This document shows, one piece after another, positions 36,040-56,115 of a DNA stretch of 64,000 bases. Numbering within the stretch: position 1 is the first letter of the stretch; every line of letters starts with the position of its first letter. The translations under genes were made by a program, and so were the position numbers. The DNA comes from Flavobacterium sp. NG2 (GTDB lineage Bacteria; Bacteroidota; Bacteroidia; Flavobacteriales; Flavobacteriaceae). Below the pieces are notes generated by a model. It worked only from the letters and a program-made list of their open reading frames with translations, had not been told where the DNA came from and ran no database searches. The stretch spans positions 1,900,001 through 1,964,000 of the forward strand of contig NZ_CP139420.1 in assembly GCF_034119845.1 (NCBI RefSeq), written 5' to 3'.

Positions 36040-36810
36040 TTAGCCACCTATTAATTTGTTGATTTCGGCTTGGGTGGTTTTGAGTGCTTTTAGTATTTGT
36101 TCCTCGCTTATTTCTTCGTCCAAGCAGGAGGTAAATACGGAGATGGCCAAAACCGCTTTTAGGTCGGAATCGTCTAGGCCTATGGGAACGGCAAAATCAG
36201 TGATGCCGCTGGTGATTTTACTTTGGGCAAAACGATGTCCGTCCTGTTTTACCTTTTCGATGGATTGTATGAGTTCGTCCTTTTGTTTTTGATTCCACTT
36301 GGTATAATGCACATCGCGGTTGAGGAGGTCGTTCCTTTTGTCTTCGGGAAACATCGATAGGAAAACCCTTCCTGAGGTGGTCAATGTAAGCGGAAAATGA
36401 GTTCCTTCTTCGATGGAAAGCGATACGGCATTGGGGCTGCGGGTTTGTGCAATAATCAACAATTGGTCGTTGTTGATGATGCTCAAATGACAAGATTGAC
36501 GGGTGCTTGCCGATAAATTGTGCATAGGGTAGTGGGCTACGCGCTTTAATTCGTCAAATGGCGTGTGACGATGTGAAAGGCTATACATTTTGAGTGACAA
36601 ACGGTATTTACCTGCATTGGAACTACGGGTGATGTAGCCTCTTTCTTCCAGGCAAACCAGCATACGGTAAATTTCACTAGGGGTTTTTTGGATGCCTTGG
36701 GCAATTTCTGCTTGTGATAACGGAACTCCTTCTTTAGAGAGATATTCTAATATATCAAGACCTTTATCTAAGGCTGGAGCATTGTATTTTGTAGTGTTTT
36801 CTTCCGTCAT
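36040..36810 (-). CDS. IclR-family transcriptional regulator
   Basis: 256 residues. The N-terminal winged helix-turn-helix contains LSQAEIAQGIQKTPSEIYRM. The rest is an IclR effector-binding GAF-like domain with ISSG-type segments (TTSGRVFLSMF, KITSGITDFAVPI). IclR regulators usually repress catabolic operons and release on binding a small acid or sugar derivative. It is divergent from the RhaT-like transporter, with a palindrome in the 115-base gap. This makes it the likely local controller of the CoA-linked catabolic genes. Confidence 0.85.
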   Translation of the reverse strand: MTEENTTKYNAPALDKGLDILEYLSKEGVPLSQAEIAQGIQKTPSEIYRMLVCLEERGYITRSSNAGKYRLSLKMYSLSHRHTPFDELKRVAHYPMHNLSASTRQSCHLSIINNDQLLIIAQTRSPNAVSLSIEEGTHFPLTLTTSGRVFLSMFPEDKRNDLLNRDVHYTKWNQKQKDELIQSIEKVKQDGHRFAQSKITSGITDFAVPIGLDDSDLKAVLAISVFTSCLDEEISEEQILKALKTTQAEINKLIGG

Positions 36811-36861
36811 CTTTTAAAATTTTAAACAAATTTAATAAAACTTAATTTAATTCTTGTGTAT

Positions 36862-36892
36862 TTCATATATAAAATATAGATTTGTATATGAA
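36862..36892. promoter_or_regulatory. Inverted repeat in the IclR/transporter divergent region
   Basis: TTCATATA (36862-36869) and TATATGAA (36885-36892) are perfect 8-base arms with a 15-base spacer, 34 bases before the transporter start. It is a candidate IclR operator. Confidence 0.5.
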
Positions 36893-36925
36893 TTAACAAA
36901 ATCAAAAAACCAAAACTATTAAATT

Positions 36926-37978
36926 ATGTCAAATCCGCTATTGGGAACCTTTGTCCATGCCGTAGGTGGGGTCTCTGCTTCTACTTGTTATGTTCCTTTT
37001 CAAAAAGTAAAAAAATGGTCGTGGAATACCTACTGGTTGTTGCAAGCTGCTTTTGCTTGGTTTGTATTTCCGGTAATTATTGGGTTTTTGACAGTGCCTG
37101 ATTTGGTGTCCGTTTTCAAGGATTCGCCTATTTCGGTTATTGTTAATGCGACTTTACTGGGAGCGGTTTATGGTTTTGGCGGAATGTGTTTTGGTTTTGC
37201 CATCAGGCACATTGGCTATTCGTTGACTTATACTATTTCGATTGGGATTTCGGCGGTTTTAGGGACAATTGTCCCTTTATTAATGCACGGGAATTTGGTC
37301 GAAAAATACAAGGCTCCGGGAGGCGCTATAATTTTTATAGGAATGTTTATTGCCATTATAGGGATTGCCATTTGTGGAGTAGCAGGTTACCGCAAGGAAG
37401 CCGATTTAAAACGAAATGCTCAGCAAGGGGATGCTATCATCAGTTTTGATATGAAAAAAGGCTTGATATTAACGCTTATTGCAGGGGTTTTATCGGCTGT
37501 TTTTGGGATTTCTCTTGAAGTAGGAGCGCCAGTGGCTGAAATGGCGGGGAAATATGGCGCGGGTAATTTTGAAGGCAATGCTAGTTTGATTCTTTCCACT
37601 TTTGGGGCTTTTGCAACCAATTTGGTTTGGTTTGTAATGGCGGGCATCAAGAACAATACCTTAAAGGAATTTACGGATGTCAAAGGTATTGGAAAACGCA
37701 GTTTCGGAATCAATTTCGGCATGTCGGTGTTGAGTGGTGCGTTGTGGTACGGTCAGTTTTTCTTTTATGGAATTGCACACGTACAAATGGGAGCCTTCAA
37801 ATTTGCCAGTTGGGTAATCCATATGTCGATGTTGATTTTCTTTAGTTACATCATCGGGATTATAATGAAAGAATGGCAAGCAGTTAGTAAACGAACGTAT
37901 AACACACTGATTTTGGCCTTATTTGTATTAATAGCTTCGTTTTTTATCATGACTTATGGCAGTATGCAAGGCGCTTAA
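36926..37978 (+). CDS. RhaT-family sugar:proton symporter
   Basis: 350 residues and about 10 transmembrane segments. The opening GTFVHAVGGVSASTCYVPFQKVKKWSW and the later YGQFFFYGIAHVQMG align well by eye with E. coli RhaT (L-rhamnose-proton symporter). The substrate is likely a neutral L-sugar. It lies 115 bases from the divergent IclR gene and 74 before the CoA-transferases, so it appears to open the operon. A second, more distant RhaT-like carrier is encoded at 55090-56115. Confidence 0.8.
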   Translation: MSNPLLGTFVHAVGGVSASTCYVPFQKVKKWSWNTYWLLQAAFAWFVFPVIIGFLTVPDLVSVFKDSPISVIVNATLLGAVYGFGGMCFGFAIRHIGYSLTYTISIGISAVLGTIVPLLMHGNLVEKYKAPGGAIIFIGMFIAIIGIAICGVAGYRKEADLKRNAQQGDAIISFDMKKGLILTLIAGVLSAVFGISLEVGAPVAEMAGKYGAGNFEGNASLILSTFGAFATNLVWFVMAGIKNNTLKEFTDVKGIGKRSFGINFGMSVLSGALWYGQFFFYGIAHVQMGAFKFASWVIHMSMLIFFSYIIGIIMKEWQAVSKRTYNTLILALFVLIASFFIMTYGSMQGA

Positions 37979-38052: not shown

Positions 38053-39195
38053 ATGAAACCATTAGAAGGAATTGTAGTTCTTGAATTTGCCCAATTTATG
38101 GCAGGTCCCTCAGCGGGTTTGCGATTGGCTGATTTAGGAGCAAGAGTAATCAAGATAGAAAGACCCACACACGGGGAGGCGGGAAGACAAATTGCACTTA
38201 AAAACTTGTTTTTGGATGGCAGTAGTTTGGTTTTTCATACCGTAAACAGAAATAAAGAATCCTATGCAGCCGATTTAAAAAATCCAGAAGATTTAGAATG
38301 TGTCAAAAAACTCATCGCTCAAGCGGATGTGATGACGCATAATTTTCGCCCGGGAGTGATGGAGAAAATAGGTTTGGATTACGAAAAAGTAAAAGCGATT
38401 AATCCTAAAATGGTGTATGCTACCGTTACGGGATATGGCACGACAGGACCTTGGGTTAAAAAACCAGGTCAGGATTTATTAGTACAATCCATGTCGGGTT
38501 TTGTGAATTTAACAGGGAATAAAAACGATGATCCAGTGCCTGTGGGAGCAGCGGTTTCGGATATTATTACGGGTTGTCATTTGGCACAAGGAATTCTTTC
38601 CAGTTTATTCAAAAGAACTAAAACAGGATTAGGCGCTTGGGTTGAAGTGAGTTTATTAGAATCAACTTTGGATTTCCAATTTGAAGCCTTAACTACTTAT
38701 TTGAATGATGGTCACCAAAAGCCATCAAGAGCCGAAAAAGGTTCGGCGCAACCGTATTTGGGTGCGCCATACGGAGTGTACAAAACTAAAGATGGATATC
38801 TCTCACTAGCTATGGGTTCACTACTGCGTTTGGGTGAAGTTTTGGGTTGTGAGGCTATTCAAAATTATACCGATACCAACTCTTGGTTTACAAAAAGAGA
38901 CGAAATTATGACCCTTTTAGGTGATTTCTTAATTCATAAAAACACCCAAGATTGGTTGGCTGTTTTAGAGCCTGCTGGCATTTGGTGTTCGGATGTGTTT
39001 GATTACCAAACTTTATTGAATCACGAGGCCTACAAAGTTTTGGCAATGGATCAAAAATTACCATTACTATCCGGTGAAGAGGTGCATACCTTACGTTGTC
39101 CGATTCGTGTGAATGACGAACGAATTTTTGCAAAAAAACCAGCACCCCGAGTAGGACAACATACAAACGATATTAGAAAAGAATTTAATTTGTAA
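38053..39195 (+). CDS. Family III CoA-transferase (CaiB/BaiF), first of a tandem pair
   Basis: 380 residues of the family III CoA-transferase fold. Signatures are [27 protein letters not shown] at the front, and the catalytic Asp170 in [26 protein letters not shown] and the C-terminal CPIRV complete the family pattern. These enzymes move CoA between organic acids, such as succinate and a hydroxy acid. The downstream paralogue is 11 bases away, has the same length and the same catalytic Asp, so the two may be subunits of one enzyme, as in SmtAB or BbsEF. No signal peptide. The acid substrate is unknown. Confidence 0.9.
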
Positions 39196-39206
39196 CCCAA
39201 GCCAAA

Positions 39207-40349
39207 ATGAAACCATTACAAGATATATTAATCGTTGATTTGAGTCAGTTTTTATCGGCTCCTTCCGCTACTTTGCGTTTAGCTGATTTAGGAGCGCGTG
39301 TCATCAAAGTAGAAAAACCAGAAACGGGTGATATTTGCCGTCAATTATATGTTTCCAATGTCATATTAAATGGCGAATCTTCTGTTTTTAGAGCGATTAA
39401 TCGAAATAAAGAAAGTTTTCAAGCCGATTTAAAAAAGGAAGCCGACAAACAACAAGTACTAAAATTGATTGCCAAAGCAGATGTGTTAGTTCATAATTTT
39501 CGCCCCGGTGTTATTGACCGTTTGGGCTTGGATTACGAAACTGTAAAAAAAATTAATCCTTCCATTGTTTACGGAAACATTTCAGGTTATGGTACCGAAG
39601 GTCCTTGGAAGGCAAAACCCGGACAGGATTTATTAGCACAATCCTTATCAGGTTTGACTTGGCTAAACGGAAAAGCCACCGATGGTCCTGTTCCTGTAGG
39701 AGTAGCTATTGTTGATATTTTATCAGGAGCTCATTTGGCTCAAGGAATTTTGGCTGCTTTAATCAAAAGAGCCAAAACAGGGGAAGGAAGTAAAATCTCG
39801 GTCTCTATGTTGGAATCTATTTTAGATTTTCAATTTGAATCGATTACTACTTTTTATCACGATGGAGGCCAACCTACAGTGCGTCCTGAGAGTAATAGTG
39901 CACATGCGTATTTAGGTGCGCCTTACGGAATTTATCAAACACAATCAGGCTATATGTCACTAGCCATGGGAGCAATTCCAGTTATTGGCGAATTAATAGA
40001 CTGTGAAGCTTTATTAAATTATCCCGAAAGAGCGAGTTGGTTTACGGAACGTGACGAAATCAAAAAGATTTTAGCTCAACATTTACTAACCCATACAACG
40101 GAGCATTGGTTGAGTTTGTTAGAACCCGCCGATATTTGGTGTGCGCAAGTGATGAGTTGGGACGAACTTTTTGCTCATGATGGATTCAAAATTTTAGAAA
40201 TGATTCAAAAAGTGCGCATGGGAGATGGTTTTGAATACGAAACCACCCGTTGCCCGATTAAAATTGACGGACAATATTTTACTTCCCCCTTAGGCTCACC
40301 CGTATTAGGCGAGCATAATGAATCCATAAGCAATGAATTTAAGATATAA
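39207..40349 (+). CDS. Family III CoA-transferase (CaiB/BaiF), second of a tandem pair
   Basis: 380 residues, the same length and domain order as its upstream neighbour: [36 protein letters not shown], catalytic Asp170 in [10 protein letters not shown], and CPIKI near the end. The high similarity points to tandem duplication followed by divergence. Both keep the catalytic Asp, so either homodimers or a heteromer could be active. The stop shares its last base with the start of the solute-binding-fold gene (TAATG), which implies tight coupling and a shared process. Confidence 0.9.
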
Positions 40350-41581
40350 TGAAAAAGCCAAAGTTTAAAATAGCGGTACGTAAATTTGATGCTTTCGAAT
40401 CATCAATAGCTAGAATTTGGGATTCTTTTTGTCAAAAAACAAACTGTGATTTTGAGTTGGAGGCTGTCGCATTCGACCTTCATCCTTTATACGATACTAT
40501 TTTAAAAAATAAGGGTTTGGCTAATGGCGATTGGGATGTTTCCTTAATCAATACCGATTGGATTACCGAGGCCTATGCCGCCCAAGCCATCGAAGATTTA
40601 ACTCCCTATATTGCTAAAAAAGCACCAGAAAATTTCCCAGAAGGTTGGTCAGAATCCTTGTTGTACAAACAACGTTTTGACGGTGGGACTTATGGATTGC
40701 CTTTTCATGATGGACCTGAATGTTTGATTTATCGAAAAGACCTATTTGAATCCATAGACGAAGGTGTCGCTTTTTACAGAGATTATGGGAAACCGTTGCA
40801 AGTACCCCAAACATGGGATGATTTGATGGAAGTGGCCGATTTTTTCAACAGACCAGAGGAAAATTTGTACGGGACTACTTTTGCAGCTTTTCCTGATGGT
40901 CACAATACGGTTTTTGATTTTTGTTTGCAATTGTGGACCCGTGGAGGTGATTTATTTGATGCAAATAAAAAAATAAAAATCAATACAGCGGTTGCGATTG
41001 AAGGAATGGAGTTTTATCGTAAGGCGTTACAAAATACGAATGCAATTCATCCTGATTCTAGAAACTTTGATTCGGTTAAGTCTGGTATGGCTTTCGCCAA
41101 TGGGAATCTAGCGATGATGGTGAATTGGTTTGGATTTGCCTCATTCAGCGAAGTCTATGCAGATTCGAAAGTAAAAGGAAAAGTGGATGTGACTAATGTG
41201 CCAGCCGGACCTAATGGCGAAGGTGTTTCGTTGAATGCTTATTGGATGTACGTAATAGGAAAAGGCAGTAAAAACAAACAGTTAGCCTATGATTTTATCC
41301 AGTTTGCGGTCAATGCTCAAAATGATAAATTATTGACTTTAGAAGGCGGTATTGGTTGCCGAAAATCCACTTGGCATGACCCTGAAGTCAATACAGTAGT
41401 TCCATATTATTACAAATTAGAAGAATTGCATCAAAACACCCGTTCGTTACCACGTAAGAGCAATTGGTCAACCATTGCTGATGTAATTGATCAAGTCGTT
41501 CTCGATGTGATTAATAGTGAAAAGGATATCGAAACCATTCTCAACCAAGCACAACTAAAAATTGACCAAATAGAAAATTAG
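40349..41581 (+). CDS. Solute-binding-fold protein without signal peptide
   Basis: 410 residues resembling family 1 extracellular solute-binding proteins for sugars (LPFHDGPECLIYRKDLFES, PQTWDDLMEVADFF, GNLAMMVNWFG). Unusually, the mature domain starts at once ([14 protein letters not shown]) with no signal or lipobox, and no ABC permease is nearby. It begins by a one-base overlap with the CoA-transferase stop, so it is probably cytoplasmic and works with it. Periplasmic-binding folds have become enzymes elsewhere (thiaminase I, Thi5), so a cytoplasmic enzyme, sensor or carrier is possible. A start upstream can be excluded by the overlap. Confidence 0.75.
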   Translation: MKKPKFKIAVRKFDAFESSIARIWDSFCQKTNCDFELEAVAFDLHPLYDTILKNKGLANGDWDVSLINTDWITEAYAAQAIEDLTPYIAKKAPENFPEGWSESLLYKQRFDGGTYGLPFHDGPECLIYRKDLFESIDEGVAFYRDYGKPLQVPQTWDDLMEVADFFNRPEENLYGTTFAAFPDGHNTVFDFCLQLWTRGGDLFDANKKIKINTAVAIEGMEFYRKALQNTNAIHPDSRNFDSVKSGMAFANGNLAMMVNWFGFASFSEVYADSKVKGKVDVTNVPAGPNGEGVSLNAYWMYVIGKGSKNKQLAYDFIQFAVNAQNDKLLTLEGGIGCRKSTWHDPEVNTVVPYYYKLEELHQNTRSLPRKSNWSTIADVIDQVVLDVINSEKDIETILNQAQLKIDQIEN

Positions 41582-42029: not shown

Positions 42030-43100
42030 ATGGATATTAACTACAAACCCGAATTGCCTTTAGAGAATCGCCCTATTTACATCATTGGTGCGGGAGGCAT
42101 TGTGCGTGATGCTCATTTGCCTGCCTATAAAAGTGTAGGATTTACAATAGCTGGAATTACCAATAGAACACGTCCAAGGGCTGAAGAATTAGCGACTCAG
42201 TTTGGTATTCCGATGGTTTACGAAACAGTAGCTGAAATGGTTCAAGATGCTCCAGAAAATGCTGTTTTTGATTTAACATTAATGCCGAATCAATTTGTGC
42301 AAACCTTAGAACAATTACCTGATGGGGCGGCAGTTTTGATTCAGAAACCAATGGGAGATGATTTTAAGCAAACTCTCGAAATTCTGAACGTTTGTAGAAG
42401 AAAAAAATTAAAAGCAGCCATCAACTGTCAGATGCGTTTTGCACCTTATGTGATGGCAGCAAAATATTTAATAGAACAAGGATTAATAGGCGAATTGTAT
42501 GATTTTGAAGTAAGACTTACGACTTATACACCTTGGGAATATTTTCCCAATGTGGTCCATCATCCAAGATTAGAAATCCAGCAACACAGCATTCATTATA
42601 TTGATTTGATCCGCTCGTTTTTAGGAAATCCAAAAGGGGTATATTCCAAAACCCTTCGCAATCCTGCCAAACCGATGTCTTCGACCCGAACCACAACTAT
42701 TATGGATTATCAAGATTCGATTCGCGCTATTATCAATACCAATCATGATCATAATTTTGGTGAAAAAAATCAAGAAAGTTTTGTGAAATGGGAAGGAACA
42801 AAGGGAGCTATCAAAGCACGAATTGGTTTATTACTAGATTACCCAAATGGAAAACCTGATTTGTTTCAATATTGTATTCTCAAAGAAGGTGAAGAACCAA
42901 AATGGGTTGAAGTTCCTCTTGAAGGCTCGTGGTTTCCAGATGCTTTTGTGGGAACGATGGCTTCGTTGATGCGCTTTGTAGAAGGTTCCACAACCGAATT
43001 ACCAACGAGTGTAGAAGATGTGGTGCATTCGATGGCGATTGTCGAAGCGGCTTATGAATCGAATGACAAAGGTGGGGTAAGTCCCAATTATAATATCTAA
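42030..43100 (+). CDS. Gfo/Idh/MocA-family oxidoreductase, atypical active site
   Basis: 356 residues. N-terminal Rossmann motif [16 protein letters not shown] and the Gfo/Idh lysine in QKPMG (Lys106; the usual form is EKP). The C-terminal domain starts near residue 125. In the usual active-site segment D-x-G-x-H-x-x-D, this protein has QHSIHYID, so the first acidic residue appears replaced by Gln. The family oxidises sugars and sugar acids with NAD(P). It is cytoplasmic and shares an operon with a MaoC hydratase and an exported GH29, tying it to a sugar released outside. Confidence 0.8.
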
Positions 43101-43110: not shown

Positions 43111-43554
43111 ATGCATATTGTATCACGATTTTATGAAGACTACGAATTAGGTAGTACACGAGAAACTTTAGGGAGAACGATAACCGAAACCGATTTTGTT
43201 GTCCACGCAGGACATACAGGCGATTTTTTTCCGCATCATATGGATGCCGAATGGTGTAAAACACAGCCTTTCAAACAACGTATTGCGCATGGTACCTTGA
43301 CTTTTGCAGTAGGAATTGGCATGACTGCCACCGAAATTAATCCAGAGGCTTTTTCAAAAGGCTATGACCGTTTGCGTTTTGTAAAACCGGTTTTCATTGG
43401 AGATACCATTCGAGTGGTGGTGACCATTAGTGAAAAGAAAGAATCCAACAAGCCAGACCTTGGACATATCACAGAACATGTAGAAATATTCAATCAAAAC
43501 GACCAGTTGGTTTTGGTTTGTGACCATATTTTATTAGCAAAATATAAATCATAA
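43111..43554 (+). CDS. MaoC-like (R)-specific enoyl-CoA hydratase/dehydratase
   Basis: 147-residue single hot-dog domain. The catalytic motif is seen as [10 protein letters not shown] (Asp38 and His42/His43), matching the SGD.NP.H.D pattern of (R)-hydratases, and [11 protein letters not shown] forms the central helix. The enzyme would add or remove water on a CoA thioester. It lies 10 bases after the oxidoreductase and 3 before a GH29. Its presence next to family III CoA-transferases implies a CoA-thioester intermediate; the substrate is not known. Confidence 0.85.
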
Positions 43555-43557: not shown

Positions 43558-45123
43558 ATGAAAAATACCCTTTTAGGATTAGCCAGTTTAGCGTTAATCT
43601 CCTGTAACGCACAGCAACAAACAACAAAAAAGAAAGTTGCGACAAAGAAAATTGAATACAAAGCCGATTGGGAGTCGTTAAAACAACACCAAACTCCAGA
43701 ATGGTTTTTGGATGCTAAATTTGGTATCTATTGCCATTGGGGACCTTATTCGGTACCTGAGTATAAAAACGAATGGTATTCTCATTGGATGTATGTACAC
43801 AAAGACAATCCTGAAGCCAGAAACGGAAAAGACAGTGAGTACTATACGCATCACGTGAAAACCTATGGCCCACTAGATAAATTCGGCTACAAAGATTTTA
43901 TTCCAATGTTCAAAGCCGAAAAATTTAATGCAGCAGAATGGGCTGATTTATTTGAAAAATCGGGAGCTAAATTTGCTGGTCCCGTTTCGGAACATGCCGA
44001 TGGTTTTGCGATGTGGGATAGTGATTTGACCAAATGGGATGCCAAAGATATGGGGCCTAAACGCGATGTTATGGGCGAATTATCCAAAGAAATTCGTAAA
44101 CGAAACATGAAGTTTATCGCTACTTTCCACCGCCAATGGTTGTATGCTTGGTTTCCTACTTGGGATGAAACAACGGATGCCTCAGATCCAAAATATGCTG
44201 GTTTGTATGGTCCAAAAGTGAAAAAAGGAGATTTCCTTTTCCCAGATAACCCAAACAGAAAAAAACTAGGAGCGGCATCTTATTATCCTTATCCTGACGA
44301 ACAATTTAACAAAGAATGGTTGGATCGTTTGAAGGAAATTATCAATAAATACAACCCTGACATGGTATGGTTTGATAATAAAATGGATATTATCGGTGAA
44401 AAATACCGCAAAGAATTTTTGCAATATTACTACAACCATGGTCAAAAAAGAAACCAAGAAGTCGTTTCGACTTATAAGTTTAATGATTTTGTTAAAGGGA
44501 CTGCCGTTTTGGATTTAGAGCGTTCTCGTATGAAAGAGAAACAGCCTTTTCCTTGGTTAACAGATGATTCAATCGACTGGAAATCATGGTCGCATATTGC
44601 CGATCCGAATTATAAATCCACCAATCGTTTGATTGATTTCTTAGTCGATGTTGTCAGCAAAAATGGAGGCGTATTATTAAATATAACACCTAAGGCTAAT
44701 GGTGAAATTCCTGAGCCAGTAAAAGAACGTTTATTGCAAATGGGCGATTGGCTTCGTACCAATGGGGAGGCTATTTACGGAACACGTACTTTTGATATTT
44801 ATGGAGAAGGCGATTTTGAAGTAAAAGAAGGGCATTTAAGTGAAGACAAAAATGCAGACAATACAGCCAAAGACATTCGCTTTACAACCAAAGGGGATAT
44901 TGTTTATGCTACGGTCTTAGACTGGCCAGCTGGAGACAAGCTTGTTATTCATTCATTTAAGAAAGAGGGGCCTTATTTGAAAAACGGAATTCAATCCATT
45001 GAATTTTTGGCCAATAAAAAAATGATGAAGTATCGTATGGAAAATGATGGCTTGCATATTCAGTTACCAAAAGAAAAAGTAGGGGACTATGCATTTGTAT
45101 TTAAAATCACTCCGAAAAAATAA
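43558..45123 (+). CDS. GH29 alpha-L-fucosidase/galactosidase-like lipoprotein
   Basis: 521 residues with a lipoprotein-type signal (LALISCNAQQ, Cys16). GH29 motifs are PEWFLDAKFGIYCHWGPYSVP, SEHADGFAMWDSDLTKWDA and MVWFDNKMD with the nucleophile Asp273. The enzyme would remove a terminal alpha-L-fucose or, in this porphyran-type context, alpha-L-galactose. Placing it 3 bases after a cytoplasmic MaoC gene is unusual and links the hydrolase to a CoA-based pathway. It is the second of three GH29 paralogues; a MITE-like element follows. Confidence 0.85.
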   Translation: MKNTLLGLASLALISCNAQQQTTKKKVATKKIEYKADWESLKQHQTPEWFLDAKFGIYCHWGPYSVPEYKNEWYSHWMYVHKDNPEARNGKDSEYYTHHVKTYGPLDKFGYKDFIPMFKAEKFNAAEWADLFEKSGAKFAGPVSEHADGFAMWDSDLTKWDAKDMGPKRDVMGELSKEIRKRNMKFIATFHRQWLYAWFPTWDETTDASDPKYAGLYGPKVKKGDFLFPDNPNRKKLGAASYYPYPDEQFNKEWLDRLKEIINKYNPDMVWFDNKMDIIGEKYRKEFLQYYYNHGQKRNQEVVSTYKFNDFVKGTAVLDLERSRMKEKQPFPWLTDDSIDWKSWSHIADPNYKSTNRLIDFLVDVVSKNGGVLLNITPKANGEIPEPVKERLLQMGDWLRTNGEAIYGTRTFDIYGEGDFEVKEGHLSEDKNADNTAKDIRFTTKGDIVYATVLDWPAGDKLVIHSFKKEGPYLKNGIQSIEFLANKKMMKYRMENDGLHIQLPKEKVGDYAFVFKITPKK

Positions 45124-47319: not shown

Positions 47320-48501
47320 ATGAATTATTGTAAACTATCACAAACCATTTTGCTGGGGCTTTTTTTTCTTTCATCAAATGCACAGCAACAGGCTAAAAGC
47401 CTAAATCTGGAAAGTAAGAGTAATGAAGATATTCGAACACTTGCTTTACCGAGCTATTTGCAAAAAGAAGGAGATTGGGAATTTCAAGCTAATGTCTCTG
47501 ATGATTTTAATTATAAGTATTCTGAAACGAATGCTAAGACCAATTTTGGAAAAAATAAATGGGTTAATTTCTACTATAGCAATTGGGATGGACCCGGAAC
47601 AACTTATTGGAAATACAATCATGTGGCAGTGGATGGAAACGATTTGATTATTAAATCTTCCCGAAGAAATAAGGCAACCGAATTTAATCCGATTTTTTCA
47701 AAAGCGGACAAAATGAACAAACCTGACGGAGGTATCAATGCAGGTTGTATTAGTTCCATAGACAAAGTGTCGTTTCCAGTTTTTATAGAATCTAAGGTAA
47801 GTGTGGCTAATATTGCTTTGGCTTCGGATGTGTGGTTGTTAAGCCCTGATGCAACCCAAGAAATTGATATTATTGAATGTTATGGAGGTAAAGGTTCCGG
47901 AAATGCTTTTTTTGCCAAATCCATTCATCTAAGTCATCATTCATTTATTAGAAAACCATTTACTGATTACCAGCCTAGAGATAAAGGCGCATGGTATGAA
48001 AGAAAGGGCGTTGAAGCTTGGGGCGACTATTGTTGGAACAACGGGGATAGAGAATATGTAAGAGTGGGTGTTTATTGGAAAAGTGCATTTCATTTTGAAT
48101 ATTATATTGATGGGGAGCTAGTACGAGTATTATACGATAAAAGTTTAGCCACCAAACGCAACGGGAAATGGGAGTACGGTTATCCTACAATGACGGATGG
48201 TAAATTAGATGTTGAAGCTGGAAAACAAAAGATTATCAATTTTAGTACAACTGAAAACTATTCTTTTGAAGAACTCCAAAAAGCGAATGCTGTTTCGAAA
48301 GTGAGTATTATAGATCCTAATCACTATCAAAACGGAAATGGTTATACCAAAGAGTTAAACATTATCATCAATATGGAGTCTCAAGATTGGCATGTTGCGG
48401 CTGGTAGAACTCCATCAGATGCGGATTTGGCTGATGATACTAAAAACACGGTGAAAGTAGATTGGATTCGCGTATTCAAACCTAAAAGTTCCGATAAATA
48501 G
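47320..48501 (+). CDS. GH16 beta-agarase-like enzyme (DagA-type), exported
   Basis: 393 residues with a signal peptide (GLFFLSSNAQQ). The catalytic motif is E181-I-D183-I-I-E186. The block SHHSFIRKPFTDYQPRD followed by YVRVGVYWKSAFHFEYYIDG is, as I recall, characteristic of beta-agarases such as DagA, which cut beta-1,4 bonds in agar. An insert near residues 285-350 before the last strands is typical of that subgroup. It is monocistronic, with a long AT-rich leader downstream before the GH2 gene. Confidence 0.85.
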   Translation: MNYCKLSQTILLGLFFLSSNAQQQAKSLNLESKSNEDIRTLALPSYLQKEGDWEFQANVSDDFNYKYSETNAKTNFGKNKWVNFYYSNWDGPGTTYWKYNHVAVDGNDLIIKSSRRNKATEFNPIFSKADKMNKPDGGINAGCISSIDKVSFPVFIESKVSVANIALASDVWLLSPDATQEIDIIECYGGKGSGNAFFAKSIHLSHHSFIRKPFTDYQPRDKGAWYERKGVEAWGDYCWNNGDREYVRVGVYWKSAFHFEYYIDGELVRVLYDKSLATKRNGKWEYGYPTMTDGKLDVEAGKQKIINFSTTENYSFEELQKANAVSKVSIIDPNHYQNGNGYTKELNIIINMESQDWHVAAGRTPSDADLADDTKNTVKVDWIRVFKPKSSDK

Positions 48502-48893: not shown

Positions 48894-51446
48894 ATGAAAA
48901 TCAAATTATCGAAAACAATTGTTTTCCTACTGTTATTTTGTATGGGTACGGCACTTATGCAAGCGCAACCCAACACAACCTTATCGCTAGAGGATTCAAG
49001 TCAGCAAATACTGGATTTGAGCGGGAAGAGATGGCGATTCAAAATGATGGCGCCAGGCGAGGGTGTGAAAAAAGGACTTCACAAACTACCATCCGAAGAC
49101 ATTGAAACGCTGGTTTGGAACAACGCCAAAGTTCCAGGCGATGTTTATACTGATTTATGGAAAGCAGGGGTAATTGACGACCCTCATTTTGGAAGAAACA
49201 GTGTAAAAGCGCAATGGGTACAACAATACGAATGGTGGTATGCCTTACAATTTAGTGTAACCGAAGGTGTAGAAAACCAAATGGTGGACCTCGTTTTTGA
49301 AGGGGTTGACTATAGTTGTGAAGTTTGGCTTAACGGCCATTATTTAGGCAAGCACGCAGGAGTGTTTTCACCTTTTTCATTTAATGTTAATGAGTATTTA
49401 AGAATTCATAAATGGGATTTCTTGAAAGGACGAAATATGTTGGTGGTCAAATTAGATACACCGCCACAAGTCAATGCTTTTGTAGCAGGTAAAAAAACAC
49501 CTTGGTTTGGTGATTATTGGAGAGATATTACCCCAATAGGTATTGTTGGACCAGTAAAACTAATACGTACAGGTAAGGCTCGTTTTAAAGATGTGTACGC
49601 TAATAATACGATTAATAAAGATGGTTCAGCAGATGTTAATTTAGAAATCACAGTTGAAAACACAAATAAAGAACCAAAAGAATACACCTTTGAAACGGCG
49701 CTTAATGGTAAAAACTTTAAGATGAAGGAGGAGAGAATGGTATTTAAAAAGACCATTCAGCCAGGGACTCATAAAGTAATTCATAAAATTCATTTAAAAG
49801 AAGCAAAACTCTGGTGGCCTTGGGATTTAGGGGACCAAAATTTATATATCGCAAAAATTGCTATTAAAGATGGAAAACTAAATCAAGATGTAAACGAAAC
49901 TACTTTTGGTATTCGTGAAGTTACGTCAAAATGGAATCCTGGTTTTGTAAAAGATGTGGATGTTACCTTCCCACGTTCGACTTATATCAATGGTAAATTT
50001 CATTTCATCCGTTCGGCTTGTTGGGGTGGACCACCAAATATTTTTGTAGGTCGTACAGAAATTAGCGATTACAAAGAATTGATTCGTTTAGCCAAAGAAA
50101 TGAATATGAATAATATTCGAATTTTTGGATGGCATCCTCCTGAAATTCCTGAGTTTTATCAATATTGTGACGAGATGGGAATGACGGTTTGGCAAGACAT
50201 TATTCCGCTTGGAACAGGAAATATTCCTTATGATGAGGAAAATTTATCCCAAATTTTCAATGAGGGGGTAAAAGTGGTTGTGGCTCGTAGAAACCATCCT
50301 TCATTAATCATGATGGAAGGTGGAGAAGAAATGATGTTTCGTACCCGTGACCCTAAAATGGGTAGAAAATTTTTGGAGCGCTTAGGTGATTCTTTACAAG
50401 CACATGTAAAATTGCCTTATGTTCCAGATTCACCAATGACCGACCACGTAGGACAACAAGCTGGCTTTAAACCAAAAGAAGCCGTGCATGCCTTGCGTTA
50501 TTTTTACGAAATGGGGCGTTGGTTACACGAAGATTGGTACCAAACGAATGCCAATGGTTTCCCAATTGTACCAGAATTTGCGATTACTTCTGTGCCTTCA
50601 GTAGAGAGTTTGAAAAAGTTCATTCCTGAAAACGAAATGTGGCCTCCTGGATTAAGTTGGGGACACCACTGGGCTGATTTAACGCATTTGCGCATGCAAA
50701 ACTGGGATGTTTTTGGCAGTGAAATGAAAAGCTCATTAGAGGAATTTGTCAATGCTACACAAGATGCACAGGGAATCATTTTCCAAAACGGGATTGAACA
50801 TTTCCGTCGTGACAAACCGAGTTTGAGTGGAATTGCATTGTGTCACTACATCACTTATGGACCCGATATGAAATGGGCGATTGTGGATAATTACAGAAAG
50901 CCTAAAAACTCTTATTATTTTGTTCAAAAAGCGTATCAGCCGTTGTTAGTGAATTTTGAATTCAAAAAACGCCGTTGGGATACTAATGAGCCATTTGTGG
51001 GGAACATATGGATTATCAATGATTTTTACAAAGAGTACAAGGATTGTAAAGTGAAATTCGAAATGAAAGATGACTCAGGAGCAGTTATTTCTAGCAAAAA
51101 TTTTGAGGTTTCAAAAATTGATCAAAACAGTGCCAAATCGTTCTTCCCTATAAACGAAAAAGTACTGAAAACAGTAAAATCAAAATTCTATGTTAATCTG
51201 GAATTGACTGATAAATCTGGGAAAGTGATCTCTAAAAACGATTATTTCTTCTTGATAGGGGACCAAAAAGAAGCTACTAAATATTTTAACGAGTGGAAAA
51301 AAATCCGTTTGAAAGAAGAAAATGAAAATGGCGGTTATGGTTCTTATTACCATTATTTCAAAGAATTTACAGGAGAAGATGGTATGAGATATGAAAGCCA
51401 AAATCAAAATCCTAGAGCGACAGGATTTGAACCAAACAAAAAATAA
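48894..51446 (+). CDS. GH2 family glycosidase (beta-mannosidase-like), exported
   Basis: 850 residues with a signal peptide (MGTALMQAQ). Domains follow beta-mannosidase GH2: a sugar-binding sandwich (30-230), Ig-like domain (230-345), TIM barrel (345-690) and C-terminal sandwich. In place of the usual Asn-Glu acid/base pair it has MMEGGEEM, with Glu478-Glu479, so the Asn is replaced. The nucleophile is likely the Glu of VPEFAITS. The substrate could be a beta-linked galactose, mannose or uronate. It is followed after 45 bases by a signal-less solute-binding-fold gene. Confidence 0.8.
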   Translation: MKIKLSKTIVFLLLFCMGTALMQAQPNTTLSLEDSSQQILDLSGKRWRFKMMAPGEGVKKGLHKLPSEDIETLVWNNAKVPGDVYTDLWKAGVIDDPHFGRNSVKAQWVQQYEWWYALQFSVTEGVENQMVDLVFEGVDYSCEVWLNGHYLGKHAGVFSPFSFNVNEYLRIHKWDFLKGRNMLVVKLDTPPQVNAFVAGKKTPWFGDYWRDITPIGIVGPVKLIRTGKARFKDVYANNTINKDGSADVNLEITVENTNKEPKEYTFETALNGKNFKMKEERMVFKKTIQPGTHKVIHKIHLKEAKLWWPWDLGDQNLYIAKIAIKDGKLNQDVNETTFGIREVTSKWNPGFVKDVDVTFPRSTYINGKFHFIRSACWGGPPNIFVGRTEISDYKELIRLAKEMNMNNIRIFGWHPPEIPEFYQYCDEMGMTVWQDIIPLGTGNIPYDEENLSQIFNEGVKVVVARRNHPSLIMMEGGEEMMFRTRDPKMGRKFLERLGDSLQAHVKLPYVPDSPMTDHVGQQAGFKPKEAVHALRYFYEMGRWLHEDWYQTNANGFPIVPEFAITSVPSVESLKKFIPENEMWPPGLSWGHHWADLTHLRMQNWDVFGSEMKSSLEEFVNATQDAQGIIFQNGIEHFRRDKPSLSGIALCHYITYGPDMKWAIVDNYRKPKNSYYFVQKAYQPLLVNFEFKKRRWDTNEPFVGNIWIINDFYKEYKDCKVKFEMKDDSGAVISSKNFEVSKIDQNSAKSFFPINEKVLKTVKSKFYVNLELTDKSGKVISKNDYFFLIGDQKEATKYFNEWKKIRLKEENENGGYGSYYHYFKEFTGEDGMRYESQNQNPRATGFEPNKK

Positions 51447-51491: not shown

Positions 51492-52649
51492 ATGTCACAA
51501 GAAAAGATACAATTAAAAGGAATTACTTGGGACCACAGTAGAGGGTTCACATCAGCAGTTGCTACGGCACAACGTTTTCATGAATTATATCCTAATGTAG
51601 AAATTACATGGGAAAAAAGATCTTTGCAAGCCTTTGCTGATGAGCCTATCAACAAATTAGCAGAGCGTTATGATTTACTCATTATTGACCATCCTTGGGC
51701 AGGTTTTGCGGCAAGAACCAAAGTGATTATTCCGTTAAACGAGTATTTACCAAAGGAATTTTTAGAGGATCAAGCCGCTAATTCGGTAGGAAAATCTCAT
51801 GAGAGCTATTGTTTTGATGGATACCAAAGCGCGTTGGCTATCGATGCAGCCACTCCAGTAGCAGCTAGTCGCCCCGATTTATTAGAAAAATTAGGAAAAA
51901 AAGCTCCTGAAACTTGGGAAGATGTTATGGATTTAGCCAAGGAAGGTTTGGTTGCCATTCCGGGAATTCCGCAAGATACGTTGATGAGTTTTTATATGAT
52001 TTGCTGTACTCTAGGGGAAGATGTAGCCTTAACAAAAGACTATTTTGTTTCTGAAACGATTGGTTTGAAAGCATTAGAAATTTTAAAGGAATTAGGGAAA
52101 TATATCGATCCAGCTTGTTACGACATGAACCCAATAAAGGTATATGAAGCCATGACGCTTACGGATAAATATGCCTATTCTCCTTTTGCTTATGGCTATA
52201 CAAACTATTCGAGACAAGGATATGCGAAGCATTTTTTAAAATTTCATGACGTTGTTAGTCTCGAAGGGAACAAACTAATTACGACTTTGGGAGGAACAGG
52301 TTTGGCTATTTCTGCCAATTCAAATCATAGAGAAATTACGTTAGCTTATGCGCAGTATGTGGCCTCTCCAGAAACTCAAAAAGGGGTGTTTTTTGATAAT
52401 GGCGGACAGCCAGGGCATAGAGGTGCTTGGTTAGACGAAAGAACCAATGCGGTTACGTCGAACTATTTTATAGATACTTTACCTACACTAGACCGCGCTT
52501 TTTTAAGACCGCGTTACCATGGACATATGTATTTTCAAGATCATGCAGGTGCCCCAATTAGGGAGTATATGATGAAGGGAGGAGATACTAAAAAAGTATT
52601 AGACGGCTTAAATCAATTGTATATTGAATCATTAAAAAAAACAATGTAA
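51492..52649 (+). CDS. Second solute-binding-fold protein without signal peptide
   Basis: 385 residues of the sugar-binding protein fold (YDLLIIDHPWAGFA, KAPETWEDVMDLAKEG, ISANSNHREITLAYAQYVASPETQ), beginning directly with MSQEKIQLKGITWDHSRG and no signal or lipobox. It is not closely similar to the other such protein at 40349 beyond the fold. It is followed by an enoyl-CoA hydratase and aldehyde dehydrogenase, again without any ABC permease. Two such proteins, each beside CoA enzymes, suggest a repurposed cytoplasmic role. Confidence 0.75.
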   Translation: MSQEKIQLKGITWDHSRGFTSAVATAQRFHELYPNVEITWEKRSLQAFADEPINKLAERYDLLIIDHPWAGFAARTKVIIPLNEYLPKEFLEDQAANSVGKSHESYCFDGYQSALAIDAATPVAASRPDLLEKLGKKAPETWEDVMDLAKEGLVAIPGIPQDTLMSFYMICCTLGEDVALTKDYFVSETIGLKALEILKELGKYIDPACYDMNPIKVYEAMTLTDKYAYSPFAYGYTNYSRQGYAKHFLKFHDVVSLEGNKLITTLGGTGLAISANSNHREITLAYAQYVASPETQKGVFFDNGGQPGHRGAWLDERTNAVTSNYFIDTLPTLDRAFLRPRYHGHMYFQDHAGAPIREYMMKGGDTKKVLDGLNQLYIESLKKTM

Positions 52650-52813: not shown

Positions 52814-53596
52814 ATGAGTGATTTATCCACCTATTTAGTAGTACGAAAAGAAGCTGCTATAGCCACAATTAGTTTGAATAGGCCTAAGGCGAATAGTTAT
52901 TATCTCGATTTTTTACAATTAATAAGTCAAGCGATTCGTGAGGCGAGTGCTGATAATGCGATTAAAGTTATTTTAATCAACAGTACTTCAGAAAAATTTT
53001 TCTGTGCGGGTGCCGATATTAAAATATTTAGTACCAATACCACAGCGGAAAATGCTGAAATGGTCAAAGCCGCTCGTGCAGTTTCTGAAGCGATTGTTTC
53101 CAGTTCCAAAATAGTGATTGCAGCCATTAGCGGTCATGTTTTAGGAGGAGGATTGGAAATGGCCATGGCTTGTGATATTCGCTTAGCTGCAAAAGGAGAT
53201 TATTTGATTGGTTTGCCTGAGGTAAAACTGGGTTTGATGCCTGGAAATGGAGGAACGCCCCGAATGATTGATTTAATTGGGGCGAGTAGAGCTATGGAAC
53301 TTTTAGTAACGGGTAATTCAATTGCACCTGATTTAGCCTATCAGTATGGATTATTCAATCAGCTTTTTGAAGCCCATGAATTTGACGCTAAGGTTCAAGA
53401 CTATGTAACTGAATTAGCGCAAGGAGCTGGAGAAGCCATGACAGCTATAAAAAAATATGTACAACTGCATAAGGGAATGAGCTTACAAGAATCATTAGAT
53501 TTTGAAACCCAATCGGTGGAGTCTTTGTATGATACCCATGATGCAAAAGAAGGGTTTGAAGCTTTTGTAGAAAAGCGAAAACCTAAATTTAAGTAA
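52814..53596 (+). CDS. Enoyl-CoA hydratase (crotonase family)
   Basis: 260 residues of the crotonase fold. The oxyanion-hole region FFCAGADI and both catalytic glutamates are kept: GGGLEMAMACD and GLPEVKLGLMPGNGG. The enzyme adds water across a CoA-linked double bond or acts on a related thioester. Together with the MaoC protein it could handle both stereochemistries. It is 24 bases before the aldehyde dehydrogenase gene and lies after a hairpin. The substrate is unknown, but its association with sugar enzymes is notable, as crotonases mainly handle fatty or aromatic acids. Confidence 0.85.
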   Translation: MSDLSTYLVVRKEAAIATISLNRPKANSYYLDFLQLISQAIREASADNAIKVILINSTSEKFFCAGADIKIFSTNTTAENAEMVKAARAVSEAIVSSSKIVIAAISGHVLGGGLEMAMACDIRLAAKGDYLIGLPEVKLGLMPGNGGTPRMIDLIGASRAMELLVTGNSIAPDLAYQYGLFNQLFEAHEFDAKVQDYVTELAQGAGEAMTAIKKYVQLHKGMSLQESLDFETQSVESLYDTHDAKEGFEAFVEKRKPKFK

Positions 53597-53620
53597 CGAA
53601 ACAACCAAAGATCAATTATT

Positions 53621-55072
53621 ATGAATCAAGAAATCAAACATTACCGATGTTATATTAACGGTGAATGGTTAGATTCTACTACCAGAGATCGTATCAAAGT
53701 GGAATACCCTGCAACCAATGAAGTTTTTGCTACAGTCACCGCTTGTACCAAAGAGGATGTGCAATATGCCTTAGAAACATCTGAAAAAGCACAATTTAGT
53801 TGGGGCTTACTAGCGGCTCAAACTCGGGCTAATTATATTTATGCTATCTGTGATCGTTTAAAGCTAGAACGAGAACATTTTGCCCAATTGCTAGTAATGG
53901 AGCAAGGAAAAACCTATGCCGAAGCCTTAGGGGAAGTTGACGATACCATTCGCTATATGACGTATTCTGCTGAAGCAGGGCGTCGTATTCAAGGGGCTAT
54001 TTTTCCGACTGAAAATCCTAATGAACGTTTAGAAATTCACAAAGTTCCTTATGGTGTCACGGTTGCCTTATGTGCATTTAACTATCCGTTGGCCTTAATT
54101 GGACGAAAATTAGGCCCAGCTTTGGTTACTGGAAATACGATTATTATAAAACCTCATGAGTTAACACCTGTCACCGCTTCAGAATTTTGCCGTTTGGTGG
54201 AAGATGCAGGTTTGCCAAAGGGTGTTGTAAATATGGTCTCTACCCAAAATGCCGCAGCGGCTTCTTTATTAGTCGAAAGTCCCATTACGAAGTTAATCAG
54301 TTTGACAGGAAGTACAAATGCTGGTCGAGCCATGTATCGTGCTGCAGCTAATAATATCACGGGTTTAATCTTGGAATTGGGCGGTAAAGCGCCATTTATT
54401 GTACTAGAAGATGCGGACATTGACAAAGCGGTCGAAGCGGCTGTAATTTCGCGTTTTGCTAACTGTGGACAGGTTTGTATTTGTAACGAAATGGTCATGG
54501 TAGCGGATAAAATTGCCGATGAGTTTACCGATAAATTAATCCAGCGTGTTGCACAAATTAAGGTGGGAGATCCATTTGCTTCAGGCATCAATATGGGGCC
54601 AAATGTGAGTACTTCTGGTTTAGAGCGCGTAAATCAATTGGTGAAAGACAATATCGCAGAAGGAGCTGAATTAGTTATGGGTGGTGGACGTCCTGAAGGA
54701 GCTGCTTTTGAAAAAGGAAATTGGTATGCGCCTACTGTTTTGACCCAAGTTAAAAATGGAGATGCAACGACTAAACATGAATTGTTTGCTCCTGTTTTAC
54801 CGATTATGAAAGTTTCTGGATTTGAGGAAGCAATGGCATATTCTAATGCTAGAGAAGAAGGTTTGTCGGCTTATTTGTTCACCAACGATTATAAAATTCA
54901 CCAAAAAGCAATTGACCAACTACAGGTTGGAACCATTTTTATCAACAAACAGATTGTTGGCTATATTCAGGGATACCACTCAGGACATAAAACATCAGGT
55001 TTGGGAGGAGAAGACGGTATATACGGTATTGAACATTATTTGCAAAAAAGAACCATTTACTTGGAATATTAA
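53621..55072 (+). CDS. Aldehyde dehydrogenase, AldA (lactaldehyde dehydrogenase)-like
   Basis: 483 residues. NAD(P)-dependent aldehyde dehydrogenase with the catalytic Cys286 ([10 protein letters not shown]) and the general base Glu252 (LELGGKAP). The C-terminal [25 protein letters not shown] resembles E. coli AldA, which oxidises lactaldehyde and glycolaldehyde. An L-sugar pathway could give L-lactaldehyde or L-glyceraldehyde as its substrate. An alternative is 3,6-anhydro-L-galactose dehydrogenase, also an ALDH family member needed for agar breakdown. It is cytoplasmic and part of the operon ending in the second transporter. Confidence 0.85.
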
Positions 55073-55089
55073 TCACTAATTAAAGCATT

Positions 55090-56115
55090 ATGATAATAGG
55101 ATTTTTATGGGTACTGTTTGCAGCTATCCTGTTGGGTTTTTACGCCTTTCCGTCTAAGTATGTCAAAGGGTATGATGTCGAAAATACTTGGGGTGTTTTT
55201 TGGTTGTTAGCCATGTTTATAGTTCCCGTTTTGGCTTCAATTCTGTTAGTTAATGGCTTGATGGATACCTATGCACAAGTGCCTACTTCTATTTTCATAA
55301 GTATCTTTTTCCTAAGTTTATTGTGGGGTATTGGAAACCTTTTATGGGGAATTAGTATTTCGAAAATTGGAATGGCTTTAGGTTTTTCGTTATTGATTGG
55401 TGTGGGAACTTTAGTCGGTTCTGTTTTGCCTTTTTTTATGGGAAATATAGAGCAGTTAGCTACGCCAGGTGGAATGATTATTGTTTTTGGGATTTTGATT
55501 ATCATGGTTGGAATTATTCTAAACGGTAAAGCAGGTTTGTTGCGTGAGGCCAATGAATCTTCGGATGCTGGGACTTCCAATAAAAACATGAAAGTGGGTA
55601 TTATTATGTGTGTTGTTGGCGGAATTTGCGCAGCAGGATTTAATCTGTCTTATCATGTGGCTGATAGTATAGGACATATAGGCGACATATCCCAAAATCA
55701 ATACGCAAACTCGCCTTGGATTGCCCGCTTGGCTGTTATGTTGCCTTCTTTTATAGGAAGTGGAGTGATAACGGTTTTCTATTTTGCGTATCAGTTAAGC
55801 AAAGGAAAAACATGGGTAAAATTTGCCGTTCCATCAAGTCCTAAGAACATTGTATTAATTGGGCTAATGGCTATCGTCTATGTGACTTCATTAATCATTT
55901 ATGGTTTAGGAGCATACAGTTTAGGCGCATTAGGAACCTCAGTGGGTTTTGCAGTTTTTCAAACAGGTTGTATTATGGTGGCCAATATATTAGGGTTGTT
56001 CTCAGGGGAATGGTCTCAAGCGGGTGATAAAAGTAAGCGATTTTTGTATTCAGGATTGTCAGTAATGAGCCTTGGAATTCTCGTGATTGCTTTTGGGAAT
56101 TATATGATGAGTTGA
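55090..56115 (+). CDS. Second RhaT-like / drug-metabolite superfamily sugar transporter
   Basis: 341 residues with about 10 transmembrane segments. The pattern AAILLGFYAFPSKYVKGYDVENTW and LLWGIGNLLWGISISKIG is that of the RhaT/sugar-transport branch of the drug-metabolite transporter superfamily, less like E. coli RhaT than the first transporter. It follows the AldA-like gene by 17 bases and closes that operon. It is a likely inner-membrane sugar importer; two carriers may serve two related sugars. Confidence 0.75.
   Translation: MIIGFLWVLFAAILLGFYAFPSKYVKGYDVENTWGVFWLLAMFIVPVLASILLVNGLMDTYAQVPTSIFISIFFLSLLWGIGNLLWGISISKIGMALGFSLLIGVGTLVGSVLPFFMGNIEQLATPGGMIIVFGILIIMVGIILNGKAGLLREANESSDAGTSNKNMKVGIIMCVVGGICAAGFNLSYHVADSIGHIGDISQNQYANSPWIARLAVMLPSFIGSGVITVFYFAYQLSKGKTWVKFAVPSSPKNIVLIGLMAIVYVTSLIIYGLGAYSLGALGTSVGFAVFQTGCIMVANILGLFSGEWSQAGDKSKRFLYSGLSVMSLGILVIAFGNYMMS

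Follow-up and report, generated by a model that had tools for sequence, protein, structure and literature searches.

A conserved module of CoA-transferases, hydratases and signal-less solute-binding-family proteins in a porphyran-type locus of Flavobacterium sp. NG2, and its possible role in L-galactonate breakdown

Genes of the locus and their arrangement in relatives

We analysed a 64,000-nucleotide stretch of the Flavobacterium sp. NG2 genome (contig NZ_CP139420.1, positions 1,900,001 to 1,964,000; hereafter the window), in which two class III coenzyme A (CoA)-transferases (CaiB1 and CaiB2), a MaoC hydratase, a crotonase-type hydratase (ECH) and two solute-binding-family proteins (SBP1 and SBP2) are encoded beside exported glycoside hydrolases (GH) and a sulfatase. 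The original prediction had placed a candidate CoA-linked sugar catabolic system at 36040..56115. Pfam and NCBIfam scans, by which gene families were assigned, recovered every family it had named: an IclR regulator, two RhaT carriers, the CoA-transferase pair, MaoC, ECH, a Gfo/Idh/MocA dehydrogenase (Gfo), an AldA-like aldehyde dehydrogenase (ALDH), two SBPs, GH29 and GH2. That the locus has this anatomy is nearly certain; the coordinates, however, span parts of two modules, A and B, each of them incomplete. The features are as follows.

36040..36810, minus strand: IclR-family regulator of module A (Pfam IclR_C and HTH_IclR)
36862..36892, no strand: candidate IclR operator between IclR and RhaT1, 31-bp inverted repeat TTCATATA-N15-TATATGAA
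36926..37978, plus strand: RhaT1, probable L-galactose/H+ symporter by inferred substrate (Pfam RhaT, 180.5 bits)
38053..39195, plus strand: CaiB1, class III CoA-transferase (CoA_transf_3, 328 bits; Asp170 kept)
39207..40349, plus strand: CaiB2, class III CoA-transferase (CoA_transf_3, 328 bits)
40349..41581, plus strand: SBP1, cytosolic solute-binding-family protein (SBP_bac_1, 110 bits; 1-base overlap with CaiB2)
42030..43100, plus strand: Gfo/Idh/MocA dehydrogenase (Pfam), proposed L-galactose 1-dehydrogenase
43111..43554, plus strand: MaoC, proposed L-galactonyl-CoA dehydratase (MaoC_dehydratas, 79.8 bits)
43558..45123, plus strand: GH29a, exported, probable exo-alpha-L-galactosidase (closest to 7snk and 7ljj)
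45489..47072, plus strand: Sulf1, exported, probable exo-L-galactose-6-sulfatase (7lha, 661 bits, residues 26-523)
47320..48501, plus strand: GH16, exported, beta-agarase-like (4asm beta-agarase D, 264.5 bits)
48894..51446, plus strand: GH2, exported, opening module B (orthologues of 75-76% identity immediately ahead of SBP2 in loci L195 and L196)
51492..52649, plus strand: SBP2 of module-B type, cytosolic solute-binding-family protein (77-83% to SBP2 of L195 and L196)
52814..53596, plus strand: ECH, crotonase-type hydratase of module B (ECH_1, 183 bits)
53621..55072, plus strand: ALDH, AldA-like, module B (Aldedh, 480 bits; 80-84% in L195 and L196)
55090..56115, plus strand: RhaT2 carrier of module B (Pfam; 76% in L196, not seen in L195 or L197)

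Module A reads SBP2-CaiB1-CaiB2-SBP1-Gfo-MaoC. Of 395 Flavobacteriales genomes, 17 have SBP1, with this one among them, and the full six-gene run was present in 12/12 Flavobacteriaceae flanks, fetched from 12 of the 16 relatives. Because these six genes keep to a single run in the relatives' flanks, and because CaiB1 and CaiB2 are the only two PF02515 genes on the 4.15-Mb contig that makes up the genome, the grouping goes beyond chance. A scan of named genomes covered the best 80 of 392 SBP1 relatives, ranked by closeness to a sphingomonad sequence. Among the 53 named loci of at least 18 kb, SBP2 lay within 10 kb of SBP1 in 47, CaiB in 51, and MaoC and Gfo in 48 each; 41 loci had all four. Since SBP1 or SBP2 served as the bait for finding loci, the frequencies apply to such loci and not to genomes. 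The original prediction had named a lack of conserved co-occurrence as its refutation; checked on the relatives, in flanks and named loci alike, it withstood this.

To go by their record titles, the loci that carry module genes belong to Alpha-, Beta- and Gammaproteobacteria, Bacteroidota, Acidobacteria and Chloroflexi, and to an Opitutus bin. A plasmid locus of a haloarchaeon (L035) carries SBP1 (36% identity), CaiB (37%), MaoC (41%) and Gfo (35%) together with an AMP-ligase, GH29 and a rhamnose mutarotase, and a Latescibacterota locus (L109) has SBP1 without any other module gene. Rhizobial plasmid records hold CaiB-SBP2 and Gfo-MaoC pairs; in S. meliloti, CaiB-SBP2 lies about 12 kb from a fucose-type operon, with other genes between. 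Eleven of the 80 named loci, and also the plasmid locus L034, have a RuBisCO-like gene next to the module, mostly with GH127 (L034, L059, L071, L073, L075, L077, L081, L082, L083, L089, L090 and, from Mucilaginibacter and without GH127, L113). Flavobacterium sp. UMI-01 has an SBP1 with 97% identity to the window's. Its CaiB1 and CaiB2 (L118:7683-9986) show a local divergence, at 86% and 93% identity against 97-99% for the nine other matched genes.

SBP2 was searched for in 369 Flavobacteriaceae genomes, of which 17 were positive including this one, and nine loci were fetched, three of module B and six of module A. Module B has the order IclR-GH2-SBP2-CaiB1-CaiB2-ECH-ALDH in G814 (L195) and G133 (L196), followed by RhaT2 in the latter, and the variant order ECH-ALDH-SBP2-CaiB1-CaiB2 in G087 (L197). 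The window's second half matches these loci in GH2 (75-76%), SBP2 (77-83%), ECH (75-77%), ALDH (80-84%) and RhaT2 (76%). Its SBP2 is closest to those of L195 and L196, at 73% to that of L197 and at 64-68% to five SBP2 of module A. Module A of the window is without SBP2 and module B without the CaiB pair; UMI-01 likewise has no SBP2 between RhaT1 and CaiB1. The idea that deleted CaiB genes left a scar between SBP2 and ECH was rejected, as the search for a CaiB remnant there gave scores (20 and 22) below the shuffle maxima (32 and 30). The A+T-rich leader before CaiB1 resembles that after SBP2 in L020 (score 51, shuffle maximum 34); with a second relative, L198, there was no match (score 18, shuffle maximum 35). 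Most simply read, SBP2, CaiB1 and CaiB2 would form a shared activation unit of which one copy is kept where the two modules come together, MaoC and ECH serving as its alternative hydratase arms. Module B would then be the SBP2-CaiB unit with a crotonase, serving another sugar. The same hydratase swap is seen in the rhizobial locus L043, which has a CoA-transferase-SBP2-ECH trio. In L043 a short-chain dehydrogenase (SDR), the CoA-transferase, the SBP2-like protein and the enoyl-CoA hydratase stand next to a ribose-type ABC transporter, and at L044:13921-20225 a CoA-transferase, an enoyl-CoA hydratase and an SDR do so without an adjacent SBP2-like gene.

Read by eye, the candidate operator recurs at the same place upstream of RhaT1: L198 and L200 have it without a mismatch, L124/L201 with two and L021 with three; L203 has a degenerate form, and in L020 it was not seen. 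IclR holds the equivalent position in L020, L021, L198-L201 and L203. Allowing up to three mismatches, the repeat matched the window once and 100 shuffles not at all, and no second copy was found in the window or in the anhydrogalactose cluster described below.

Solute-binding-family proteins and catalytic residues

The most unusual conserved part of the module is its pair of signal-less solute-binding-family proteins. SBP1 and SBP2 both match profiles of CUT1 sugar-binding proteins, with MalE3 and a trehalose/maltose-binding protein as best hits, and SBP1 matches the sugar-binding proteins 6dtq and 1eu8; judged by these profiles, both are members of the solute-binding family. Homologues with E-values up to 1e-10 number 2650 for SBP1 and at least 5762 for SBP2, ordinary binding proteins included. 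On a measure of N-terminal hydropathy, which is not a signal-peptide predictor, the two window proteins scored 0.35 and 0.38 with no hydrophobic segment, and a hydrophobic N-terminus was present in none of 240 homologues (120 of each; 237 begin with Met; maximum 1.22). In contrast, seven secreted binding proteins of related loci scored 1.8-3.1; GH29a, Sulf1, GH16, GH2 and a second GH29 of the window (GH29b), which we count as exported on the same measure, scored 1.97-2.6. This agrees with the original prediction, which had mentioned two signal-less solute-binding-fold proteins in passing.

CUT1 ABC sugar-binding proteins belong to the same profile family and differ from SBP1 and SBP2, which lack the hydrophobic N-terminus and have no ABC permease or ATPase among the scanned window genes; none was matched in the L020-L031 flanks either. 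The ABC genes of several proteobacterial loci are accompanied by their own secreted binding protein. We ruled out, on N-terminus and operon content, that SBP1 and SBP2 are genuine transport proteins. SBP2 adjoins CaiB on the same strand within 200 nt in 46/60 loci, and SBP1 adjoins Gfo in the same way in 63/80, with a gap of 448 nt in the window. At L026:9855-12134 (G281), SBP1 and Gfo share a single 759-aa frame, possibly an artefact of assembly or sequencing; this fusion suggests that the two proteins may act together.

Residues were counted in copies aligned over at least 85%, with the window protein in each set. CaiB Asp170, Asn97 and Arg99, residues with catalytic and CoA-binding roles, were kept in 101/101 copies, and Asp170 of CaiB2 aligns with an Asp of the solved CoA-transferases 10uh and 4hl6. 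Both hallmarks of class III (CaiB/FRC) CoA-transferases, the catalytic Asp and the HNFRPG CoA-binding motif, were found. MaoC Asp38, His42 and His43 were kept in 63/63, giving the Asp/His dyad of (R)-specific MaoC hydratases in the motif GD[FY][FY]PHH, which differs from the canonical GDxNPLH. By these residues, CaiB and MaoC look like working enzymes. In ECH, both active-site Glu positions were kept in 6/6 aligned copies. CaiB1, CaiB2, MaoC and ECH all scored below every NCBIfam equivalog cut-off. Itaconate degradation (Ict-Ich-Ccl) was rejected both on the hydratase, as MaoC reached 54.9 bits against the RipB/Ich equivalog (cut-off 340), and on the lyase, as citramalyl-CoA lyase was neither annotated in the Persicobacter locus L033 nor matched by Pfam among 20 scanned window proteins.

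Substrate, product and competing explanations

Comparison with the porphyran loci of PMC12316285 and PMC10033563 identified, by sequence, the markers exo-L-galactose-6-sulfatase, exo-alpha-L-galactosidase and demethylase P450 with its reductase. GH29a scored 384 bits against 7snk and 371 against 7ljj, with 261 for the best other fucosidase. The PDB label of 7ljj is exo-alpha-L-galactosidase; 7snk is labelled a fucosidase, yet is called the BpGH29 alpha-L-galactosidase in PMC12316285. GH29b leans the same way (301 and 299 bits against 243). Because GH29a best matches exo-alpha-L-galactosidases and the next gene matches an exo-L-galactose-6-sulfatase, L-galactose is the likely substrate, as had been suggested for the GH29 product. 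The broader claim of a conserved CoA-linked sugar system inside a galactan locus gains support from the co-occurrence and from these porphyran-type neighbours. No porphyranase was identified among the window GH16 genes, the one at 47320 being agarase-like (just 25.8 bits against porphyranase A) and a second, at 19976, being known by its Pfam match alone. The nearest structures to GH2 (48894) are beta-mannosidases (200 bits); the GH2 of a porphyran locus would be expected to be a beta-galactosidase.

A cytochrome P450 and a ferredoxin-reductase-type gene lie upstream of the module at 25904-28634, with a Zn-alcohol dehydrogenase nearby (18833-19951). They are probably the 6-O-methyl-D-galactose demethylation set of porphyran users, such demethylation by P450 and reductase being described in PMC10033563. 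Relatives of the P450 and reductase adjoin module A in L198, and relatives of the reductase and dehydrogenase adjoin module B genes in L197. Elsewhere in the window, a DEAD-box helicase (32559-35593, minus strand) matches Hachiman HamB with 170.6 bits, and a 232-aa gene upstream of it matches no PADLOC model; the two could be a variant Hachiman defence pair.

Three genomic contexts point to a 2-keto-3-deoxy sugar acid as the product of module A. The first is an anhydrogalactose cluster (L136, G000:C1:1984649-1992348), some 20.6 kb from the window end and outside it, with its own IclR, a RhaT2-like carrier and a cycloisomerase, an enolase-family gene that scored 641 bits against 3,6-anhydro-L-galactonate cycloisomerase; its SDR scored 327 bits against KduD (cut-off 339). 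Relatives of this KduD-type SDR (80-87%) and of the cluster's Zn-alcohol dehydrogenase (71-84%) lie inside module A operons of Bacteroidota (L033, L102, L110, L115 and L116), and more distant ones (74% and 50%) in a module A operon of Chloroflexi (L096). Such clusters include a 2-keto-3-deoxy-L-galactonate 5-dehydrogenase and a 2,5-diketo-3-deoxy-L-galactonate 5-reductase, according to PMC5069468; from family and position, we infer that the Zn-dehydrogenase and SDR of L136 are these two enzymes. In Persicobacter L033 a lactonase-family gene is present, but no aldonate dehydratase is annotated within 31 kb. The anhydrogalactose marker (9 genomes) and SBP1 (17) co-occur in 3/395 Flavobacteriales (expected 0.4; hypergeometric P 0.005), a weak overlap because this genome is included and relatedness is ignored.

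Nine Flavobacterium loci pair the module with a cluster of lactonase (7/9 stretches), Zn-alcohol dehydrogenase (9/9) and diketo-acid hydrolase (8/9). In the one that was scored, L025, the genes reached 271 bits against L-fucono-1,5-lactonase (cut-off 400) and 368 against 2,4-didehydro-3-deoxy-L-rhamnonate hydrolase (cut-off 500). Within 100 kb on the same contig, the nine loci gave no hit to the enolase-superfamily, IlvD or UxaA, the three dehydratase families to which this absence applies, and some contigs end 5-31 kb away. The best enolase-superfamily hit was at most 111 bits in 7/9 of these genomes (179 in G002 and 166 in G388). IlvD and UxaA-type genes, one or two of each per genome, lie at a great distance from the module. 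In 8/23 loci, sphingomonad and other proteobacterial, Gfo is followed by an SDR that shares 65-69% identity with the SDR of the Shinella fuconate locus.

The module is likely to act in sugar-acid breakdown, which we hold with good confidence. More specifically, module A could convert an L-configured sugar acid into its 2-keto-3-deoxy acid in a CoA-dependent manner, the sugar in the window being most likely the L-galactose of porphyran; we see the chances for and against as balanced, and CoA-dependent dehydration of L-galactonate is likewise an even bet. Gene content, conservation, catalytic residues, the missing hydrophobic N-terminus and closeness to L-galactose-releasing enzymes were observed, and from these we infer every reaction step, the SBP2-CaiB partnership and the substrates. 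The exported sulfatase and GH29a would free L-galactose, which RhaT1 would import and Gfo would oxidise at C1; the lactone would open to L-galactonate through a lactonase or unaided. CaiB, with the cytosolic SBP2 most likely binding the sugar acid for it, would put CoA on L-galactonate. A CoA thioester acidifies the C2 proton, so that a hydratase running in reverse can remove the C3 hydroxyl: MaoC would take off the 3R-hydroxyl of L-galactonyl-CoA, giving the CoA ester of 2-keto-3-deoxy-L-galactonate, and CaiB may hand the CoA of this product to the next L-galactonate. L-galactonate, L-fuconate and L-rhamnonate are all 3R, fitting MaoC-type (R) hydratases; crotonases act on 3S. The Zn-dehydrogenase and KduD of the anhydrogalactose cluster in the same genome would then convert 2-keto-3-deoxy-L-galactonate to 2-keto-3-deoxy-gluconate.

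A further-reaching version, which we offer tentatively and regard as doubtful in its entirety, is that SBP2 and CaiB make up a new two-part sugar-acid CoA-transferase, in which a formerly periplasmic binding protein, now cytosolic, captures the acid. Interchangeable hydratases (MaoC for 3R, crotonase for 3S) would replace metal-dependent dehydratases in several bacterial phyla and, as a variant, in a haloarchaeon, and would open to bacteria a path from L-galactose to 2-keto-3-deoxy-L-galactonate.

Several observations weigh against the proposed route and its conserved partners. SBP1, Gfo and MaoC are all missing from the three module B stretches (L195-L197), the absence of SBP1 being the adverse part; SBP2 was not matched in the haloarchaeal stretch L035; SBP2 is missing in 6/53 and CaiB in 2/53 long loci; and four distinct module A loci (L198, L199, L200 and L124/L201) showed no MaoC within the stretches that were fetched. 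In rhizobial loci the SBP1-like proteins are solely secreted ABC binding proteins of 25-27% identity. SBP1 (13 genomes) and the KduD-type SDR (39) are both present in 4 genomes of a sample of 395 Bacteroidota and never within 10 kb, lying about 46 kb apart in this genome and on different contigs in the other three. An enolase-superfamily gene also occurs in 7/7 proteobacterial fucose-type loci (L038-L041, L044, L045 and S. meliloti L138), three of them also with an annotated L-fuconate dehydratase and one with a UxaA pair, so the module there is not the sole dehydratase or does something else. This genome itself holds two further enolase-superfamily genes (215 and 158 bits) without an assigned role.

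Alternatively, the module may serve L-fucose or L-rhamnose, its proximity to L-galactose enzymes reflecting a relaxed substrate range. Rhizobial and other CaiB-SBP2 and Gfo-MaoC loci do sit in fucose-type operons, and the fuconolactonase-like and didehydro-rhamnonate-hydrolase-like genes of L025, though below their cut-offs, belong to a cluster that eight more loci largely share. We nevertheless consider this unlikely for the window, where GH29a and Sulf1 are closest to L-galactose enzymes; L-fucose as sole substrate loses ground in this genome, which has an L-fucose isomerase, an FGGY kinase and a class II aldolase grouped elsewhere.

The original prediction had the CoA ester cleaved, with AldA handling a C3 aldehyde. 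If ECH or MaoC split the C2-C3 bond in a retro-aldol step, in the manner of feruloyl-CoA hydratase/lyase, glycolyl-CoA and an aldehyde for ALDH would result; ECH does stand next to ALDH in the window, L195, L196 and L197, with its active-site Glu positions kept. This proposal did not hold up well: ECH and ALDH belong to module B, the downstream genes of module A indicate dehydration, and several module A operons have 2-keto-3-deoxy-acid enzymes instead. The window ALDH is moreover 46% identical to that of the anhydrogalactose cluster and may therefore oxidise a sugar and not a fragment. We find such cleavage improbable.

It is quite improbable that the CoA genes process a small hydroxy acid (lactate or glycerate) from the end of an otherwise conventional sugar breakdown. 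Acid breakdown is where class III CoA-transferases and MaoC hydratases typically occur, and L-lactate ends the diketo-acid hydrolase route, but lactate offers MaoC no 3-hydroxyl (glycerate, which has one, is spared this point), two sugar-binding-family proteins are conserved in the module, and no C3 acyl-CoA gene is listed in L033 or among ten scanned proteins of L025, L022 and L026. Equally hard to credit is a 3-keto-glycoside pathway, in which Gfo and MaoC carry out C3 oxidation, elimination and hydration on imported oligosaccharides without a sugar-acid CoA ester: Gfo is weakly similar to disaccharide 3-dehydrogenase and DgpA-type enzymes and the SBP-family proteins could bind glycosides, but CaiB with its invariant catalytic Asp is left unexplained, RhaT-type carriers move monosaccharides, and the exported enzymes closest to the window's release single sugars.

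Significance and comparison with known systems

The module is apparently undescribed. Searches of the open-access literature brought up no paper that we recognised as a description of it, and none with any of six sugar-acid-CoA names; subscription journals lay outside this coverage, so the absence of an earlier description is not proven. Sugar acids are normally dehydrated as free acids by metal enzymes. If the proposal is true, the widespread alternative through CoA thioesters would add a new chemical strategy to carbohydrate catabolism and would explain L-galactose use by porphyran degraders. It would also assign a function to many proteins that now carry the label 'ABC transporter substrate-binding protein' and mean that solute-binding proteins were recruited to cytosolic metabolism.

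The non-phosphorylating L-fucose and L-rhamnose pathways consist of a dehydrogenase, a lactonase, an enolase-superfamily dehydratase, an SDR and an FAH hydrolase. They share with the proposed route C1 oxidation, a lactonase and the 2-keto-3-deoxy acid hub, and genes like theirs flank the module in Flavobacterium and rhizobia. They differ in the dehydration step, for which the nine Flavobacterium loci have, in place of a nearby aldonate dehydratase of the tested families, CaiB, MaoC and SBP-family genes. The 3,6-anhydro-L-galactose pathway has the same proposed product, 2-keto-3-deoxy-L-galactonate (PMC11219438), and related Zn-alcohol dehydrogenase and KduD enzymes; it reaches this product through an enolase-superfamily cycloisomerase, without CoA.

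CoA-linked catabolism of 2-deoxy-D-ribonate likewise joins a sugar acid to CoA chemistry; it differs in using a keto-acid cleavage enzyme, a ligase or a thiolase and is not known to involve a CaiB/MaoC/SBP module. In the CaiB-MaoC and CaiB-crotonase systems for itaconate and carnitine, a class III CoA-transferase is also followed by a hydratase; what sets the present module apart from these is its SBP-family partner and its setting in a sugar locus.

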